The position numbers and the translations under genes were made by a program. DNA of 64,000 bases, from assembly GCF_009795715.1 (NCBI RefSeq), contig NZ_WTCR01000004.1:248001-312000 (forward strand), given 5' to 3'. This DNA comes from Labilibaculum euxinicum (GTDB lineage Bacteria > Bacteroidota > Bacteroidia > Bacteroidales > Marinifilaceae). Shown here piece after piece: positions 22,790 through 28,755 of the stretch (the first letter of the stretch is position 1; each line of letters begins with the position of its first letter). The notes under the pieces were generated by a model. That model was given only the letters and a program-made list of their open reading frames with translations, did no database searches and was not told the DNA's origin.

Positions 22790-23000
22790 TGAATATTCAT
22801 ATAACAAGTTTACTGTGACAGAACTACTAAATGAATAATTTAATGTAAAATAAATCTTATTTTTTTCTTCCGATCTTAAAGATGTTGTCTTCTTAAAAAA
22901 TACAGTTTAAATTACTTCCCCAACAAAAACAAGCGTAACACACTGATAAAAAGCCTAATTGAGCAATAGATGCCATTCTTCATGCAAACGTTTCTTTTAA

Positions 23001-23031
23001 ATAATAAAAAGACAACACAGTCTTTTTTATT
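23001..23031. other. Terminator-like stem-loop with no assigned gene
   Basis: AATAAAAAGAC and GTCTTTTTTATT (about 23002-23031) form an A/T-rich stem over an ACACA-type loop and could terminate on either strand. No plus-strand gene lies upstream, and the nearest minus-strand gene starts at 22789. The GTTGTCTT segment at 22885-22892 could pair with AAGACAAC in the 5' arm. The 22808-23000 stretch contains no convincing reading frame, so a small RNA or an upstream leader is possible but unproven. Confidence 0.4.
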
Positions 23032-23036
23032 ATCTC

Positions 23037-23071
23037 TTTGTTGGAATCCTCAATATATCTTCCTAAACTTG
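23037..23071 (+). promoter_or_regulatory. Candidate promoter of the sulfite-reduction operon
   Basis: TTTG (23037-23040) and TAAACTTG (23064-23071) resemble the Bacteroidota -33 TTTG and -7 TAnnTTTG elements (one mismatch), with 23 nt between them. Transcription would start near 23078, leaving about 30 nt before the first leader peptide start. It is a by-eye match only. Confidence 0.4.
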
Positions 23072-23106
23072 TATCCGATAAACAGATCAAAATATCCTAT
23101 TTAGCA

Positions 23107-23205
23107 ATGAGTCAATTTCTTCAAAATAACAAAATGTCTTTGTGTATGTGTACAACATGTTGTATGTGTATGGAAAGTATTGTTATGCAAAAAGGAACAG
23201 CTTAA
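23107..23205 (+). CDS. Cysteine-rich leader peptide 1 (attenuator uORF)
   Basis: A 32-codon frame, ATG 23107 to TAA 23205, encodes MSQFLQNNKMS followed by LCMCTTCCMCME. Five of nine consecutive residues (13-21) are Cys, all TGT. Downstream codons 27-30 (GCAAAAAGG, 23187-23195) are identical to the 3' arm of the terminator at 23238-23269 and complementary to its 5' arm (23240-23248). A ribosome stalled on the Cys codons for lack of cysteinyl-tRNA would leave this segment free to form an antiterminator. A ribosome reaching the stop would cover it and allow termination. It precedes the sulfite-reduction operon, and its Thr-Cys-Cys-Met-Cys-Met core is repeated in leader 2. Confidence 0.8.
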   Translation: MSQFLQNNKMSLCMCTTCCMCMESIVMQKGTA

Positions 23206-23248
23206 ATTGACGAATTAGATATCAGAATATTCTCAAGAGCCTTTTTGC
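23187..23248 (+). promoter_or_regulatory. Predicted antiterminator pairing of attenuator 1
   Basis: GCAAAAAGG (23187-23195) is perfectly complementary to CCTTTTTGC (23240-23248), the 5' arm of terminator 1. The nine pairs are mutually exclusive with the terminator. The upstream arm begins 18 nt after the last Cys codon, just outside a stalled ribosome footprint, and lies 8 nt ahead of the leader stop, inside the footprint of a terminating ribosome. Confidence 0.75.
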
Positions 23249-23269
23249 AACAGCAAAAAGGCTTTTTTT
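23238..23269 (+). terminator. Attenuator terminator 1
   Basis: AGCCTTTTTGC (23238-23248) pairs over 11 bp with GCAAAAAGGCT (23253-23263) across an AACA loop, followed by T7. It is placed 32 nt after leader 1 and ahead of every operon gene, so it acts as a premature terminator. Confidence 0.92.
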
Positions 23270-23331
23270 ATTCGACAAAATGATCTCAACAACAGACTTA
23301 ATCAATTCAAGAATATATTTTTCGCACAAGG

Positions 23332-23415
23332 ATGAATATAAATTCAAATCATACAACAAACAGAACCAATGCAGCAACATGTTGTTGTATGTGTATGTTA
23401 TGGAATCCACCCTAG
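23332..23415 (+). CDS. Cysteine-rich leader peptide 2 (attenuator uORF)
   Basis: A 27-codon frame, ATG 23332 to TAG 23415, encodes MNINSNHTTNRTNAA then TCCCMCMLWNPP. Four Cys codons (residues 17-19 and 21) are all TGT. The nucleotide core CAACATGTTGT...ATGTGTATG is shared with leader 1, with one extra TGT codon. AGCAGAA at the stop codon (23414-23420) is complementary to TTCTGCT (23459-23465), spanning the 5' arm and loop of terminator 2, so the same stall/antitermination logic applies. Spacing from last Cys codon to antiterminator arm is about 19 nt here against 17 in leader 1. The frame matching TTCCMCM supports this reading over the two overlapping frames. Confidence 0.78.
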   Translation: MNINSNHTTNRTNAATCCCMCMLWNPP

Positions 23416-23465
23416 CAGAATTCGTTATGTGCCTAAATGAACATTACATATCGAGTCTTTCTGCT
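23414..23465 (+). promoter_or_regulatory. Predicted antiterminator pairing of attenuator 2
   Basis: AGCAGAA (23414-23420) can pair with TTCTGCT (23459-23465), and TCG (23422-23424) with CGA (23452-23454) across an internal loop. This excludes the terminator 2 stem. The upstream arm overlaps the leader 2 stop codon, so a ribosome paused at the stop would mask it. Confidence 0.65.
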
Positions 23466-23484
23466 GCGCAGAAGGACTTTTTTT
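23454..23484 (+). terminator. Attenuator terminator 2
   Basis: AGTCTTTCTGC (23454-23464) pairs over 11 bp, one G-U, with GCAGAAGGACT (23468-23478) across a TGC loop, followed by T7. It ends 20 nt before the DUF2061 start codon. Confidence 0.92.
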
Positions 23485-23504
23485 ATTCTTGTAAGTCGAT
23501 TAAA

Positions 23505-23735
23505 ATGAAGGAAAAAACATACCGAAGTGTACTAAAAACCATTTCGTGGAGAACGATTGGAACCATTGATACCATCTTAATCTCCTATTTAGTGATTGGA
23601 GATTTAAAATGGGCCATGTCGATTGGCGGAGTTGAGTTGTTTACAAAAATGGGACTCTATTTTATCCATGAAAGAACATGGAATAACATCCAATTAGGAA
23701 AAGAAAAAGAACATCCCATTGATTATCACATTTAA
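23505..23735 (+). CDS. DUF2061 small membrane protein, first gene of the sulfite-reduction operon
   Basis: The 76-residue protein (MKEKTYRSVLKTISWRTIGTIDT...) carries the DUF2061 signature: a basic start, KTISWRTIGTIDT, two membrane segments (about 15-33 and 36-55, the latter MSIGGVELFTKMGLYFIHERTW) and a charged C-terminus. The frame is open from 23280, but that region contains leader 2 and terminator 2, so ATG 23505 is the start. DUF2061 has no established biochemical function, though members recur beside sulfate-assimilation genes in Bacteroidota as I recall. Here it lies 11 nt before the siroheme gene and directly behind two Cys attenuators, which ties it to sulfur metabolism. Confidence 0.88.
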   Translation: MKEKTYRSVLKTISWRTIGTIDTILISYLVIGDLKWAMSIGGVELFTKMGLYFIHERTWNNIQLGKEKEHPIDYHI

Positions 23736-23746
23736 AAAGAGAAATC

Positions 23747-24229
23747 ATGTCGAAACAGATAAAACAATTTTTACCAATAGCCTTAGATATAACAGATAAA
23801 AAAATCTTAATTATTGGAGGCGATGAAGATGCCTATAAAAAACTTAAAATATTACAACGGAGCACAAATCTAATTGAGGTGATTGCTCCTCAAATCATTA
23901 GCTGGATTAAAAATTCAGGTGTTGTTTATCACGAGAAACAATACAGCAAGGAAGTGCTAAAAGATTATTTTTTAATCTACAGCTGTGTTGAAGATCCTGC
24001 TTTTGTAAGACAATTAATGCGAGACACAAAAGAAGCCGGGGTATTACTAAATGTGCACGATCAACCAGATTTTTGTGAATTCGTTTCCCCCGCCATTTAC
24101 AAACATTCAAACATTAGTGTTGCTGTAAGTTCTAATGGTGAAGATGTTTACGAATCGATTCGCATGCGAAATCAACTGAAAGATTACTTTGAAAATTACC
24201 AGCTTCAAAAACAACTAATTGCTAACTAA
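23747..24229 (+). CDS. Precorrin-2 dehydrogenase/sirohydrochlorin ferrochelatase (CysG N-terminal domain, Met8-like)
   Basis: The 160-residue protein matches the N-terminal bifunctional half of CysG: FLPIALDITDKKILIIGGDEDAYKKLKIL (NAD-binding Rossmann loop), YSCVEDPAFVRQLMRDTKEAGVLLNVHDQPDFCEFVSPAIY, then VAVSSNGEDVYESIRMRNQLK. It oxidises precorrin-2 and inserts iron to give siroheme, the prosthetic group of the sulfite reductase encoded two genes on. The methyltransferase half of CysG is absent here and is supplied by the separate CobA gene at 27937. The glycine-rich loop is slightly unusual (GGDEDA). The gene lies between DUF2061 (11 nt) and cysJ (33 nt). Confidence 0.9.
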   Translation: MSKQIKQFLPIALDITDKKILIIGGDEDAYKKLKILQRSTNLIEVIAPQIISWIKNSGVVYHEKQYSKEVLKDYFLIYSCVEDPAFVRQLMRDTKEAGVLLNVHDQPDFCEFVSPAIYKHSNISVAVSSNGEDVYESIRMRNQLKDYFENYQLQKQLIAN

Positions 24230-24262: not shown

Positions 24263-26038
24263 ATGGGAAAAGAATTTCAAATCAATCAAGAACAATTATC
24301 TCAGCTAAATAAGCTGATTCAAGATTTATCTGCCGAGCAATTGGTTTGGGTAAATGGATACCTATCGGGGATTATTAATGGAAAAAAGAATGCAATTGAT
24401 GTTCCGATAATTTCCGATCAAAAATCTTCCGAAAGTATCACTATTTTATTTGGCACGCATACCGGACACAGCAAGGAAATAGCTATGGATCTTCACGATA
24501 GAGTTTTAGCACTGGGCTTCGATGCGAAGATACAAGGCCTTGACTTTTACACGAAAAATGATTTAAAAAAGGAAAAATACCTTTTCCTGATCGTAAGTAC
24601 ACATGGTGAAGGTGAAGCTCCTATTCAGGCTGAAGATTTGTACGAATATGTGCACGGCAAAAGAGCACCAAAACTACCCGATACCAAATATGCAGTACTT
24701 GCTTTGGGTGACAAAACCTACAAGAAGTACTGCCAGACAGGAATTGATTTCGATCTAGCTTTTACAAAATTAGGTGCGCAGGCAATTTTGCCGGTTCAAA
24801 CCAGTGATGTTGCTTACGAAGAAGTCGCCGAACAATGGATCGAAAAAGTGACTGGTGAATTGAAGACCTTGGTGCCGGAAGTTATTGCTTCAACCCAATC
24901 TGCAAGCGCTTCTGTGCCAAAGAAGAAATTTAACCGCGCCAATCCATACTATGCCGAAGTTTTGGAAAAAGTGAGAATCACAACGACTGATTCTGAAAAA
25001 GAAATTTACCATGTTGAAATCTCATTAGAAAATTCAGGTATTGAATATACAGCGGGAGACAGCATTGGTATTTTGCCCAATAATCCTATTGATTTGGTGG
25101 ACTTGATAATTGACAAGTTGGAAGATGATCCGGAACGAATAGTTACAATTGATGAGAAAGAAATCAGTTTATTTCGGGCTTTGCAAAACAAGCTGGAGAT
25201 AACCGTTTTGAACCGCGAGGTTCTTGAAAAGTACAAGGCCATAACTCAGAATAAGGATCTTGAACTGTTATTGAATAATGAGGATGAGTTGGAAAACTAT
25301 CTTCACGGAGCTGATGCATATGACTTATTGGAAGATTACCCTGGAGAAATTACCAGCGATCAATTTTTATCTACTCTTCGGGTTTTATATGCACGCCTCT
25401 ACTCTATCTCTTCAGGTCCGAAAGCAAATCCTGAGGAAGTTCACATCACCATTGCTTCGGTAAGATACAATCGTAAAAAACGCGACAGAAACGGTGCATG
25501 TTCCTCTTACATCACCGATGAAATTAATGTAGGCGATCATTTGCCCATTTACATTGATAAAAATGAGTCGTTCCGTTTGCCGGATGATGAAAACAAACCT
25601 CTGATTATGGTTGGCGCAGGAACCGGCGTGGCTCCTTACCGAAGCTTTTTGCAAGAACGTGAACAAAATAAGACAAAAGGAAAAAGCTGGTTATTCTTTG
25701 GAAATCAACGGTTCAAAAAAGACTTTTTATATCAACTTGAGTGGCAGAAATTCCTTAAAAAAGGAATACTTCAAAAATTAGATGTTGCATTTTCAAGAGA
25801 TCAGGAAGAAAAAGCTTACGTGCAGCACCGACTGAAGGAAAATGGGAAAGAAATATTTCAATGGCTCGAAAACGGTGCTCATTTTTACATCTGCGGAGAC
25901 AAAAAATACATGGCCAAAGATGTTCAGACAAGCTTACTGGAAATCATTCAGAACGAAGGTGGAATAACTCCTAAAAAAGCAGAAGAATATCTAAAAAATC
26001 TGAAAAAAGAAAAGCGATTACTGCTCGATGTATATTAA
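24263..26038 (+). CDS. cysJ: Sulfite reductase flavoprotein (CysJ-like diflavin reductase)
   Basis: The 591-residue protein has an N-terminal helical tail containing LSAEQLVWVNGYLSG as in CysJ. A flavodoxin domain (about 55-200; ITILFGTHTGHSKEIA, VSTHGEGEAP, ALGDKTYKKYC) precedes the FAD/NADPH ferredoxin-reductase module: ARLYSISSGPKANPEEVHIT, GACSSYI, MVGAGTGVAPYRSFLQERE, WLFFGNQRFKKDFLYQLEW, FYICGDKKYMAKDV. It passes electrons from NADPH through FAD and FMN to the hemoprotein CysI encoded 81 nt downstream. All key motifs are intact, and the length is normal for the family (about 600). Confidence 0.95.
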   Translation: MGKEFQINQEQLSQLNKLIQDLSAEQLVWVNGYLSGIINGKKNAIDVPIISDQKSSESITILFGTHTGHSKEIAMDLHDRVLALGFDAKIQGLDFYTKNDLKKEKYLFLIVSTHGEGEAPIQAEDLYEYVHGKRAPKLPDTKYAVLALGDKTYKKYCQTGIDFDLAFTKLGAQAILPVQTSDVAYEEVAEQWIEKVTGELKTLVPEVIASTQSASASVPKKKFNRANPYYAEVLEKVRITTTDSEKEIYHVEISLENSGIEYTAGDSIGILPNNPIDLVDLIIDKLEDDPERIVTIDEKEISLFRALQNKLEITVLNREVLEKYKAITQNKDLELLLNNEDELENYLHGADAYDLLEDYPGEITSDQFLSTLRVLYARLYSISSGPKANPEEVHITIASVRYNRKKRDRNGACSSYITDEINVGDHLPIYIDKNESFRLPDDENKPLIMVGAGTGVAPYRSFLQEREQNKTKGKSWLFFGNQRFKKDFLYQLEWQKFLKKGILQKLDVAFSRDQEEKAYVQHRLKENGKEIFQWLENGAHFYICGDKKYMAKDVQTSLLEIIQNEGGITPKKAEEYLKNLKKEKRLLLDVY

Positions 26039-26119: not shown

Positions 26120-27823
26120 ATGTCAGATAATATCAACTGGGCAGAATTGTCCGAAGTCGAAAAAATAAAAACCGAAAGCAACTATTTGCGCGGAACACTG
26201 GAGGCAAGTCTTGCCGATCCAATTACAGGAGCCATTGCTCTTGATGACAGACAAGTCTCTAAATTTCATGGCATTTACCAACAATTCGATCGGGATAACG
26301 AACGGGAAAGAAAGAAAACCAAACTGGAGCCAGATTACTCCTTTTTAATTCGGGTGAGAGTGCCTGGCGGTGTTGTAAATGCAAAGCAATGGCTGCAAAT
26401 CGATCAAATATCAGATGAATATGCCAACGGAACCATCAAATTAACCACCAGACAAGCATTTCAGTTTCATGGTGTTTTAAAAGGAAACCTAAAGCCAAGT
26501 ATCCAATCCATAAACAAGGCATTGCTCGATACCATTGCAGCCTGTGGTGATGTAAACCGAAATGTTATGGCTAGTCCTCATCCGTATGCATCCGAAGTTT
26601 TCGATCAGGTACAGAAATTGGCTGGCAAAGTGAGCGATCATTTAAGCCCAAGAACTCCGGCCTACTACGAAATCTGGCTAGACCAAAAGAAAGTGGCCGA
26701 AGGGAGTGCCGGCGAAGTAGAGCCTTTGTACGGACCCGTTTATCTGCCACGAAAGTTCAAAATTGGATTTACCACTCCTCCTTTTAACGATACAGATATT
26801 TTCACTCAGGATTTGGGATTTATTGCCATTGAAAACAATGGTGTTCTGGAAGGATTCAACATTGTTGTTGGCGGCGGAATGGGAACAACTTTTGGCGATG
26901 CGGAAACCTATCCCCGATTGGGAAATGTTCTGGGTTTTGCCTCGGCAGAGAACACTGTAGATGTTGCTGAAAAAATAGTGCTCTTGCAAAAGGAGTTGGG
27001 AAATAGAAAAGTGAGAAAGAATGCCCGTTTAAAATACACCATCGACAGAATTGGGGTTGATGCATTTAAAGAACTACTGAATGAGAAGCTTGGTTATTCA
27101 TTAGAGCCTGAAAAAAGCTATGCCTTAGTACGCAACGGCGATAAATTCGGATGGCAAAAAGCCAAAGATGGCCTTTGGTATTTGGGTCTTTTTATTGAAG
27201 GCGGAAGAGTGAAAGATGTTGATCAGATCAAAATAAAATCGGCATTGCAGGAAATTGCAAATTTTAATATTTCAGATTTCAGGTTAACGGGGAATCAAAA
27301 CCTGATTCTAGGCAAGATTGAGGAAGAAAACAAAGGTAAAATCAGTCAGATTCTGAAAAAACACCAGCTTTTGCCTCAGACAATTTCCGGGACAAGAGCC
27401 AACTCTATTGCCTGTGTTGCTCTAAACACATGTAGTCTGGCTTTTGCTGAAGCAGAAAGATATCTTCCTTTCTTGATCGATAAAATTGATGACAGCCTTC
27501 AGGAATTTGGCTTAACCAAGGATGAAATTGTGATTCGAATGACGGGTTGTGCCAATGGTTGTGGAAGACCTTACGTAGCCGAAATAGGCTTTATCGGAAA
27601 AGCTCCAGGAAGGTACAATTTCTATTTGGGTGGAAATTTTAAGGGAACACGCCTGAACAACCTGTATCGCGAAAATGTGAACGAGATAGAAATACTGAAT
27701 GAGCTTCGTCCGATTCTTAAAGATTATTCCGAAAACAGAACAAAAGGTGAAGAATTTGGTGATTTTGTGATCCGCAAACAATATGTTGCCGAAATTGTAA
27801 ATCCCAAGGATTTTAAGCATTAA
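26120..27823 (+). CDS. cysI: Sulfite reductase hemoprotein (CysI)
   Basis: The 567-residue siroheme and 4Fe-4S enzyme has two ferrodoxin-like/nitrite-sulfite reductase half-repeats. Siroheme-binding residues include LTTRQAFQFHG (about 108-118) and DVNRNVMASP (144-153). The cluster is ligated by C432/C438 (ACVALNTC, CX5C) and C477/C481 (GCANGC, CX3C), with the latter also bridging siroheme. It reduces sulfite to sulfide with six electrons from CysJ, and the sulfide feeds cysteine synthesis. Sulfate-activating genes (cysDNC, cysH) are not in the window. The 81-nt spacer after cysJ contains AT-rich, repeat-like sequence but no terminator. Confidence 0.96.
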   Translation: MSDNINWAELSEVEKIKTESNYLRGTLEASLADPITGAIALDDRQVSKFHGIYQQFDRDNERERKKTKLEPDYSFLIRVRVPGGVVNAKQWLQIDQISDEYANGTIKLTTRQAFQFHGVLKGNLKPSIQSINKALLDTIAACGDVNRNVMASPHPYASEVFDQVQKLAGKVSDHLSPRTPAYYEIWLDQKKVAEGSAGEVEPLYGPVYLPRKFKIGFTTPPFNDTDIFTQDLGFIAIENNGVLEGFNIVVGGGMGTTFGDAETYPRLGNVLGFASAENTVDVAEKIVLLQKELGNRKVRKNARLKYTIDRIGVDAFKELLNEKLGYSLEPEKSYALVRNGDKFGWQKAKDGLWYLGLFIEGGRVKDVDQIKIKSALQEIANFNISDFRLTGNQNLILGKIEEENKGKISQILKKHQLLPQTISGTRANSIACVALNTCSLAFAEAERYLPFLIDKIDDSLQEFGLTKDEIVIRMTGCANGCGRPYVAEIGFIGKAPGRYNFYLGGNFKGTRLNNLYRENVNEIEILNELRPILKDYSENRTKGEEFGDFVIRKQYVAEIVNPKDFKH

Positions 27824-27936: not shown

Positions 27937-28755
27937 ATGAAAAAAGGAAAAATATGGATTGTTGGTGCCGGACCCGGTGCTGCCGATCTGCTCACAATAA
28001 AAGCTTTACGAAGCATTCAGAATGCAGATGTAATTTTATACGATGCCTTAATTACCGATGAAGTTCGAGCTCTGTTTCCCAACAAAGCAATTCTTATTGA
28101 TGTAGGAAAGCGATCAGGCGACGGTAAAAACCCGGTCAGCAGACAAGAATATATTCACGATCAAATGCTGATGTATTACTTGCTGGGCAGTGAGGTAGTG
28201 AGATTGAAGTCGGGCGACCCAATGGTTTACGGCAGAGGGGTTGAGGAAATTCGTTTCCTGCTGGAAGCGGGTTTAGAGTTTGAACTGATTCCAGGAATCA
28301 GCGCTGCTATGGCCGCCTCCAGTGAGTTTTGGATTCCTCTTACTGAAAGAGGGAAATCATCGGGCATTCATTTTCATTCTGCCGTAAAAGTTGGTGGTGA
28401 AAAAAGTGCTTTAAACGAAATTATCAGGGAAATTGAGAACGACGATACCGTTGTAATCTATATGGGGCTTGAACATTTAAAAGACATGGCTGATGAGCTT
28501 CACAAAAAATTATCGAAGGAAACCAATATCAATGTAGTATCGAAGGTTAGCTATACAGACAGTGATGTAATAAGCGGAAACACAAAGTTTTTCAGCCAAA
28601 TAAAAAACAGCGGATTGCCGGCTTCTCCAGCAGTAATAGTGTTGGGAAATCACACTCAAATTCCTGGAAGCAGAGAAGTTAGTTTAAGAGGCAAAGCAGC
28701 CGTTTCGAGTAAAATTAAAAACTTTATCAGACAACCATTTTTAAACCTGTTTTAA
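27937..28755 (+). CDS. cobA: Uroporphyrinogen-III C-methyltransferase (CobA/SUMT)
   Basis: The 272-residue SAM-dependent tetrapyrrole methylase has the family signatures WIVGAGPGAADLLTIKALRSIQNADVILYD-type N-terminus (GxGxGD-like loop), LKSGDPMVYGRGVEEI (about 85-100), PGISAAMAA and VIYMGLEHL. It methylates uroporphyrinogen III at C2 and C7 to give precorrin-2, the substrate of the Met8-like enzyme four genes upstream. Together they make siroheme for CysI. It is the last gene of the operon, followed by a terminator at 28839-28873. The canonical uroporphyrinogen synthase (hemD) is not adjacent. Confidence 0.95.
   Translation: MKKGKIWIVGAGPGAADLLTIKALRSIQNADVILYDALITDEVRALFPNKAILIDVGKRSGDGKNPVSRQEYIHDQMLMYYLLGSEVVRLKSGDPMVYGRGVEEIRFLLEAGLEFELIPGISAAMAASSEFWIPLTERGKSSGIHFHSAVKVGGEKSALNEIIREIENDDTVVIYMGLEHLKDMADELHKKLSKETNINVVSKVSYTDSDVISGNTKFFSQIKNSGLPASPAVIVLGNHTQIPGSREVSLRGKAAVSSKIKNFIRQPFLNLF

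Follow-up and report, generated by a model that had tools for sequence, protein, structure and literature searches.

Two putative trp-type attenuators with cysteine-codon leaders lie in series before a sulfite-reduction operon in Labilibaculum euxinicum

As a short reading frame crowded with cysteine codons lies, together with a terminator-like hairpin, before genes of sulfite reduction in Labilibaculum euxinicum, we asked whether the two could act as a switch for those genes. The stretch of DNA analysed, here called the window, is 64,000 nucleotides long. The earlier note had read the locus as a trp-type attenuation layout with cysteine as the sensed amino acid, and this was supported by a conserved frame, by mutually exclusive folds and by recurrence in two other lineages. 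The unit described there is one of two, as another leader with its terminator follows at 23332-23484. We consider it highly probable that the sulfite-reduction operon is controlled by a series of two trp-type transcription attenuators, which respond to how fully tRNA-Cys is charged. The sequence itself shows the reading frames, their Cys-codon runs, the terminators and the pairings that exclude one another, together with their conservation; from these we infer that the leaders are translated, that ribosomes stall on them, that the antiterminator is captured kinetically and that the switch responds to Cys (possibly also Met).

The 32-codon frame with five TGT codons in nine that had been described was confirmed, running from an ATG at 23107-23109 to a TAA at 23203-23205 (32 codons plus stop), with Cys at codons 13, 15, 18, 19 and 21, encoded by TGT each time (Table 1). 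The terminator with seven T's claimed to follow it was also found, the terminator scan placing the hairpin at 23235-23266 (14 pairs including G-T) and the T tail at 23263-23269. Segment 1 is the zone of the Cys run, segment 2 the antiterminator 5' arm, and segments 3 and 4 are the arms of the terminator. In unit 1, GCAAAAAGG occurs twice, at 23187-23195 inside leader 1 and at 23253-23261 in the terminator 3' arm, with its complement CCTTTTTGC at 23240-23248. The exact repeat of the 3' arm stood as the earlier note had it, and the pairing of leader and terminator 5' arm, given there as nine for nine, came to 10 bp (TGCAAAAAGG at 23186-23195 with CCTTTTTGCA at 23240-23249); the repeat itself starts 17 nt past the last Cys codon by sequence, not 18 nt.

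Segment 2 of the second unit, which the earlier note mentioned no more than the Met pattern described below, begins at the leader 2 stop codon, and folding predicted its antiterminator to be a long two-part hairpin reaching from that stop codon to the terminator 5' arm. Behind unit 2 the genes follow in the order DUF2061-sirC-cysJ-cysI-SUMT, which by their family matches make up an operon for sulfite reductase and the enzymes for its siroheme. As in trp-type systems, the terminator stands before the first structural gene, the antiterminator excludes the terminator (folds and pair counts), and the downstream genes, here those of sulfite reductase and siroheme, serve synthesis of the sensed amino acid.

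In an alignment with 10 relatives, TTGTA and TATCC(T/G)ATTT blocks were conserved at 23068-23106, right before the leader-1 ATG; the second block is shifted to TAGTCC/TAATCC in L206 and L087, and L010 has TATCCTATTT. Judged by the consensus in PMC7366714, these blocks are possibly a promoter of the -33/-7 type, with transcription starting almost at the leader-1 ATG. A sigma-70 scan was discarded, as the Bacteroidetes promoter consensus differs (PMC7366714). On the minus strand, a terminator-like hairpin with 12 pairs and a T tail was seen at 21937-21910, among the upstream minus-strand genes.

Table 1. Positions of the two leader-terminator units, the genes behind them and the second leader-bearing locus of the same genome and of G050 (window numbering unless a contig is named).
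Feature	Position	Strand	Basis
Leader 1 ORF, MSQFLQNNKMSLCMCTTCCMCMESIVMQKGTA	23107..23205	+	frame intact in 21/21 loci tested
Leader 1 Cys-codon run, 5 TGT in 9 codons	23143..23169	+	sequence reading, shuffle test
Unit 1 segment 2 (antiterminator 5' arm), TGCAAAAAGG	23186..23195	+	pairing with 23240-23249; fold
Unit 1 intrinsic terminator and T tail (segments 3, 4)	23235..23269	+	terminator scan, conserved pairs
Unit 1 segment 3 core; segment 4 core	23240-23249; 23253-23261	+	within unit 1 terminator
Leader 2 ORF, MNINSNHTTNRTNAATCCCMCMLWNPP	23332..23415	+	frame intact in 21/21 loci tested
Leader 2 Cys-codon run, 4 TGT in 5 codons (CCCMC)	23380..23394	+	alignment, sequence reading
Unit 2 antiterminator 5' side: segment 2 TAGCAGAA 23413-23420, inner helix arm 23422-23430	23413..23430	+	fold, conserved pairs
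Unit 2 antiterminator 3' side: inner helix arm 23446-23454, segment 3 TCTGCTG 23460-23466	23446..23466	+	fold, conserved pairs
Unit 2 intrinsic terminator and T tail	23453..23484	+	terminator scan, conserved pairs
DUF2061 membrane protein gene, first after the attenuators	23505..23735	+	PF09834, E 4.6e-22
Siroheme synthase N-terminal-type protein (precorrin-2 dehydrogenase type; sirC)	23747..24229	+	TIGR01470 above cut-off; PF13241
cysJ, sulfite reductase flavoprotein	24263..26038	+	TIGR01931 above cut-off
cysI, sulfite reductase hemoprotein	26120..27823	+	NF010029 above cut-off; TIGR02041 just below its cut-off
Uroporphyrinogen-III C-methyltransferase (SUMT)	27937..28755	+	TIGR01469 above cut-off
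Second NIR/SIR gene with tandem Cys leaders	G000:C11:157046-158380 (L201); G050:C1:1630557-1631891 (L200)

Among the window's ATG-initiated frames of 10-60 codons, leader 1 alone had five or more Cys in nine codons, and 3645 dinucleotide shuffles of the window yielded 136 comparable Cys-dense frames, 0 of them followed by a terminator-like hairpin. When the region after the Cys run was shuffled and the terminator 5' arm kept fixed (the arm-binding test), p was 0.006 for window unit 1 and 0.001 for window unit 2. Across 19 units (L219 was dropped, as no hairpin reached the threshold there) p fell below 0.05 in 10, with a combined p of 2.8e-12 that is no true probability as the units are related. 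Unit 1 of the Marinifilum-type loci L204 and L206 failed because a late Cys codon sits directly before segment 2; stalling at one of the earlier Cys codons would still leave segment 2 free in these loci.

Folding with the leader blocked or free, a check proposed beforehand, predicted mutually exclusive folds in both units. Before segment 4 is made, the RNA left free by a stalled ribosome was predicted to fold as the antiterminator (-14.4 kcal/mol in unit 1, -16.2 kcal/mol in unit 2), and once segment 4 is present the terminator form is the more stable (-21.5 and -19.4 kcal/mol, respectively), so that antitermination would have to be under kinetic control, the usual assumption for switches of this type.

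In the proposed sequence of events, RNA polymerase would transcribe leader 1 with a ribosome behind it. With ample Cys-tRNA, the ribosome would get to the stop codon and cover segment 2, and the terminator hairpin would form; with Cys-tRNA scarce, it would stall within the Cys run and leave segment 2 free to pair with the terminator 5' arm once that is made, and transcription would go on. Unit 2 would pose the test a second time before the first gene, so that the read-through expected overall is roughly that of the two gates multiplied together. The spacing of the window units is consistent with this. Counted from the last Cys codon, segment 2 starts after 16 nt in unit 1 and after 18 nt in unit 2; its end is 7 nt short of the stop codon in unit 1, and in unit 2 segment 2 overlaps that codon, with the Cys runs lying 18-33 nt before the stop codon. 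For ribosome footprints of the usual size, a stall at the last Cys codon would leave segment 2 of both units exposed, and a ribosome that had reached the stop codon would cover it.

The leaders are shared by close cysJ orthologues in the family. Named relatives of the window's cysJ were those of Labilibaculum and Marinifilum, with 99% identity to a Marinifilaceae MAG and 97% to L. manganireducens, and a cysJ-like match was present in 22 of 56 family genomes. Conservation of the frame, for which the earlier note had asked, was seen in 15 of 15 close cysJ orthologues (>900 bits; nine loci from one reading plus L001 and L006-L010), 14 of which carried both leaders; none of the 13 weaker cysJ matches had a Cys leader within 1500 nt upstream. 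Both frames were unbroken in all 21 loci aligned (the ORFs were chosen by their Cys pattern, by which no locus was lost), and Cys was encoded by both TGT and TGC across leaders. In leader 2, the four Cys codons, start and stop were kept in 13 of 13 distinct sequences, in which 37 of 42 nucleotide sites varied in codons 2-15 versus 3 of 18 in codons 17-22. As codons 17-22 are frozen while codons 2-15 are hypervariable, selection acts on the Cys run and not on the remainder of the peptide.

Covariation, also proposed as a check, was found in part. Pairs were kept throughout, 98.5% of pair cells in the unit 1 antiterminator (13 distinct sequences, with A-U to G-U changes), 95.6% in the unit 2 antiterminator and 96.1% in the unit 2 terminator (15 sequences each), the structures being taken from the window's own fold. 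Changes in the unit 1 antiterminator were one-sided only, with no two-sided compensatory change among the 13 distinct sequences, and one pair had changed from UA to CG in each of the two unit 2 structures, by way of UG in the antiterminator. Each two-sided change tracks the genus split and may be one event. In L. filiforme, the locus has a single leader, with cysJ right behind it and none of the operon's other genes; the leader's start codon reads ATC and two of ten unit-1 pairs are lost, from which this locus would be a natural wreck of the switch.

Wider searches of the order were made from several anchors. The exact motif TGYTGYATGTGYATG, tried as a tracer, matched 33 of 393 genomes and did not serve as such beyond the family; among the 30 loci read from its matches, none besides the window had an accepted leader with a U-tailed hairpin, L100 being ambiguous. 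This locus (minus strand of G333, same order) has a leader-like ORF ending in MLLACCMCMCCMHRQMQ, but neither a U-tailed hairpin nor, within 3 kb, a recognised sulfur gene. With cysI as anchor, 19 of the 393 genomes matched, 18 besides the window's own, and the 17 other loci read (4.7-8.8 kb each, leaving aside a fragment in G097 and the second copy in G272) had no Cys leader with terminator, save a GTG ORF with terminator in L189 that was judged to be chance. Paired CCMC matches in G034 were rejected, since their ORFs start with GTG, have CCMC at the end and are accompanied by weak hairpins. With DUF2061 as anchor, 30 of 296 genomes of the phylum matched, and Cys leaders were present in 2 of the 29 other loci read.

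A second tandem pair was found in the same genome. On contig C11, two further leaders (CCCC; CCICCMCCC), each with a terminator, precede the gene for a 691-aa NIR_SIR-domain protein, and their sequences are unrelated to the window units. Segment 2 of C11 unit 2, TATCCGGGA, lies 18 nt past the Cys run (antiterminator -20.4; arm-binding p = 0.004), and C11 unit 1, with p = 0.35, is the one of four units in the genome above 0.05. The 691-aa gene was also present in one of the 55 other family genomes (G050), at 99% identity, and this second NIR/SIR locus, held by 2 of 56 family genomes, is possibly a recent transfer. The cysH-like gene of the same genome had no Cys leader of this type upstream.

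Cys leaders also precede sulfate-assimilation genes in another class of the phylum. In the order of G631, labelled as another class, DUF2061 was found in 19 of 164 genomes at 22 places, 11 of which (L218-L228) had Cys leaders, eight with two and three with one; the first leaders of L219 and L223 were read by eye, and that of L223 has one Cys. These first leaders bear a terminator (for example GCCCTTC...GAAGGGC), and their segment 2, paired over up to 13 bp with G-T included (L222), changes between loci together with the terminator. The gene order at L241 is DUF2061-cysH-cysD-cysN-siroheme synthase-NIR/SIR, followed by ThiS, Cys/Met-metabolism PLP and ThiF proteins, with TusA and PALP proteins besides at L240. 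On this evidence the three-segment logic, carried by unrelated sequences, appears to precede sulfate-assimilation genes in this class as well.

A third lineage emerged when the CysH of that other class, which had a match in 114 of 296 phylum genomes, was used as the anchor and 117 of the 119 listed CysH places were read (G656 and one G664 fragment were left out). A Cys-run ORF lay within 600 nt upstream at 13 of the 117 places, the reverse strand giving 4 and shuffled sequence 2.0 (f122 4/7, f131 2/2, f135 2/3, f142 2/13, f124 1/16, f125 1/1 and f129 1/1, the last probably by chance), and at 0 of 40 in f136. With both a Cys/Met run and a terminator required, 4 of 117 remained (two of them other-class loci); the reverse strand gave none, and five shuffles gave 0.0. 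The f124 match, L322, has tandem leaders, and CAAGAGGC in the leader of its second unit repeats the terminator 3' arm. In the genus of L322 (g226), which by our guess is probably Flavobacterium, CysH was present in 154 of 269 genomes, and leaders were found at 10 of 40 places, 5 of them tandem, in a non-random sample picked by hand mostly near G500 in the list; Cys leaders with terminator were found at 0 of the 27 top-ranked CysH loci. From the difference between picked and top-ranked loci the trait is patchy in the genus, as it is overall. Arm-binding p was below 0.05 in 16 of 17 units (L322 and ten g226 loci), with segment 2 repeating segment 4 among unrelated sequences. Further Cys-run ORFs were seen within 400 nt before cysH at L269, L271, L275, L276, L290, L292, L341, L357 and L358 (f122, f125, f131, f142), with NNPCCCCCCC at the stop codon in L290 and with terminator-like hairpins after CCCCCC in L292 and CCCCAC in L341 (the latter by eye).

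The geometry of the leaders varied between lineages. A terminating ribosome would not reach segment 2 in C11 unit 2 or in two unit-2 leaders of the third lineage, where 18-27 nt separate its end from the stop codon, and in L204 unit 1 segment 2 lies too near the last Cys codon to clear a stalled ribosome. Predicted pairing of segment 2 with the Cys-run zone (a segment 1:2 hairpin) was 0.0 in window unit 1 and 0.59 in unit 2; in four third-lineage unit-1 leaders, where segment 2 is only 8 nt past the last Cys codon, such a hairpin holding the Cys codons was predicted with a pairing of 0.78-0.85. These models suggest that different leaders probably maintain the off-state by different means.

The greater predicted stability of the terminator forms would also suit hairpins that are constitutive terminators, or a leader RNA bound by a protein, small RNA or ligand, for which TGTTGTATGTGTATG, common to both window leaders, could be an RNA motif; the ORFs would then be incidental. 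We regard this as improbable. A search for Rfam families (riboswitches, T-box and others) gave 0 matches at gathering score in the window, and a lax search of 22900-23520 gave 12, each below its cut-off; the frame survives hypervariable flanks, C11 and the third lineage keep the same layout with other Cys codon strings (TGC and TGT mixed), and segment 2 copies segment 4 in unrelated sequences.

Met is frequent inside the runs, making up 25 of 47 non-Cys residues there versus 21 of 412 outside in 23 representative leaders, part of which had been found with Met in the search pattern; in nine other-class first leaders found without it, the counts were 9 of 20 inside and 11 of 152 outside. These counts hint at joint sensing of Cys and Met. 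Runs like CCMCM and CMMMMCCM also resemble soft-metal ligands, and this, together with the Met enrichment, would fit a nascent peptide that senses copper, another soft metal or redox and whose arrest or folding, not tRNA-Cys, sets the switch. Such a peptide is very unlikely here, the downstream genes being those of sulfite/sulfate reduction and siroheme and not of metal export, and the runs varying freely in length and spacing (CMC, CCCC, CCICCMCCC) with no fixed peptide motif between lineages.

The second leaders of the other class (8 of 11 loci) end in CCC/CCCC at the stop codon without a terminator by the criterion used, and by analogy may act via translation or Rho; the leaders read in f122, f125 and f131 are alike, also without a terminator. 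Such second leaders were seen at L218-L223, L226 and L228, about 100-280 nt before DUF2061. That the leaders act mainly on translation or Rho-dependent termination downstream, as proposed for mycobacteria, with the intrinsic terminators minor, has very little probability, as both window units have strong terminators with matched antiterminators.

The two transcription attenuators proposed for the window, as read from these comparisons, would be a conserved, recurring variant of a known mechanism. A more general reading, which we put forward tentatively and at somewhat less than even chances, is that Cys/Met leader attenuation, often doubled, recurs across Bacteroidota and has been remade several times over to regulate sulfate assimilation, that it reads both Cys-tRNA and Met-tRNA, and that its two gates sharpen the response; terminators were found in three lineages of two classes, and further families have Cys leaders without them. 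If true, a short DNA scan would predict a Cys-starvation switch in many genomes. How one sensor joined different outputs is a question to ask of leaders that end in a Cys run at the stop codon, without a terminator, beside terminator-bearing ones at the same operon.

Trp-type ribosome-mediated attenuators are known from the trp, his, leu and ilv leaders, and in Actinobacteria as well (PMC1262725). With these attenuators the window has in common a leader ORF with regulatory codons, an intrinsic terminator, a competing antiterminator and an operon for the sensed amino acid; it differs in that the run is of Cys (with Met), that two units stand in series, that the phylum is another and that unit 1 has no clear segment 1:2 hairpin. 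Cys leaders of Actinobacteria have been predicted without terminators (PMC1262725, PMC4633059), and a mycobacterial case (Canestrari 2020) is cited as shown, its regulation being called translation attenuation (PMC13236596). The mycobacterial polycysteine leaders share with the window a short, Cys-run-bearing ORF upstream of cys genes and are likewise thought to sense Cys (PMC1262725, PMC4633059), but have no conserved terminator and a run near the stop codon (PMC1262725), and the window units differ from them on both counts; it is the other-class second leaders that resemble them.

Within the phylum, short ORFs in long 5' UTRs have been reported (PMC7366714). In Flavobacterium psychrophilum, 'strong clues' of leader-peptide attenuation before amino-acid operons were inferred from transcript maps (PMC9723704), its main text naming no Cys leader; this bears on the earlier note's remark that it knew of no such leader described in the phylum. 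Searches of open-licence papers listed none recognised as an account of Cys leaders or of sulfur-assimilation attenuation in Bacteroidota.

The uORFC-8-2 motif of Rhodobacterales, for which attenuation before cysS has been inferred, likewise combines a uORF containing Cys codons with an intrinsic terminator behind it, and differs in its tRNA synthetase gene, its two Cys codons only, its single unit and its alphaproteobacterial hosts (PMC8632094); the window is not of this motif, since DUF2061 and sulfite reductase genes, not cysS, lie downstream. Salmonella mgtCBR, too, has a leader RNA that holds two ORFs and is subject to attenuation, but there the units answer different signals (ATP and Pro-tRNA; PMC3641672), whereas both window units carry Cys runs. 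Serial attenuators with one signal for both would lend themselves naturally to testing how a response is shaped by two gates.
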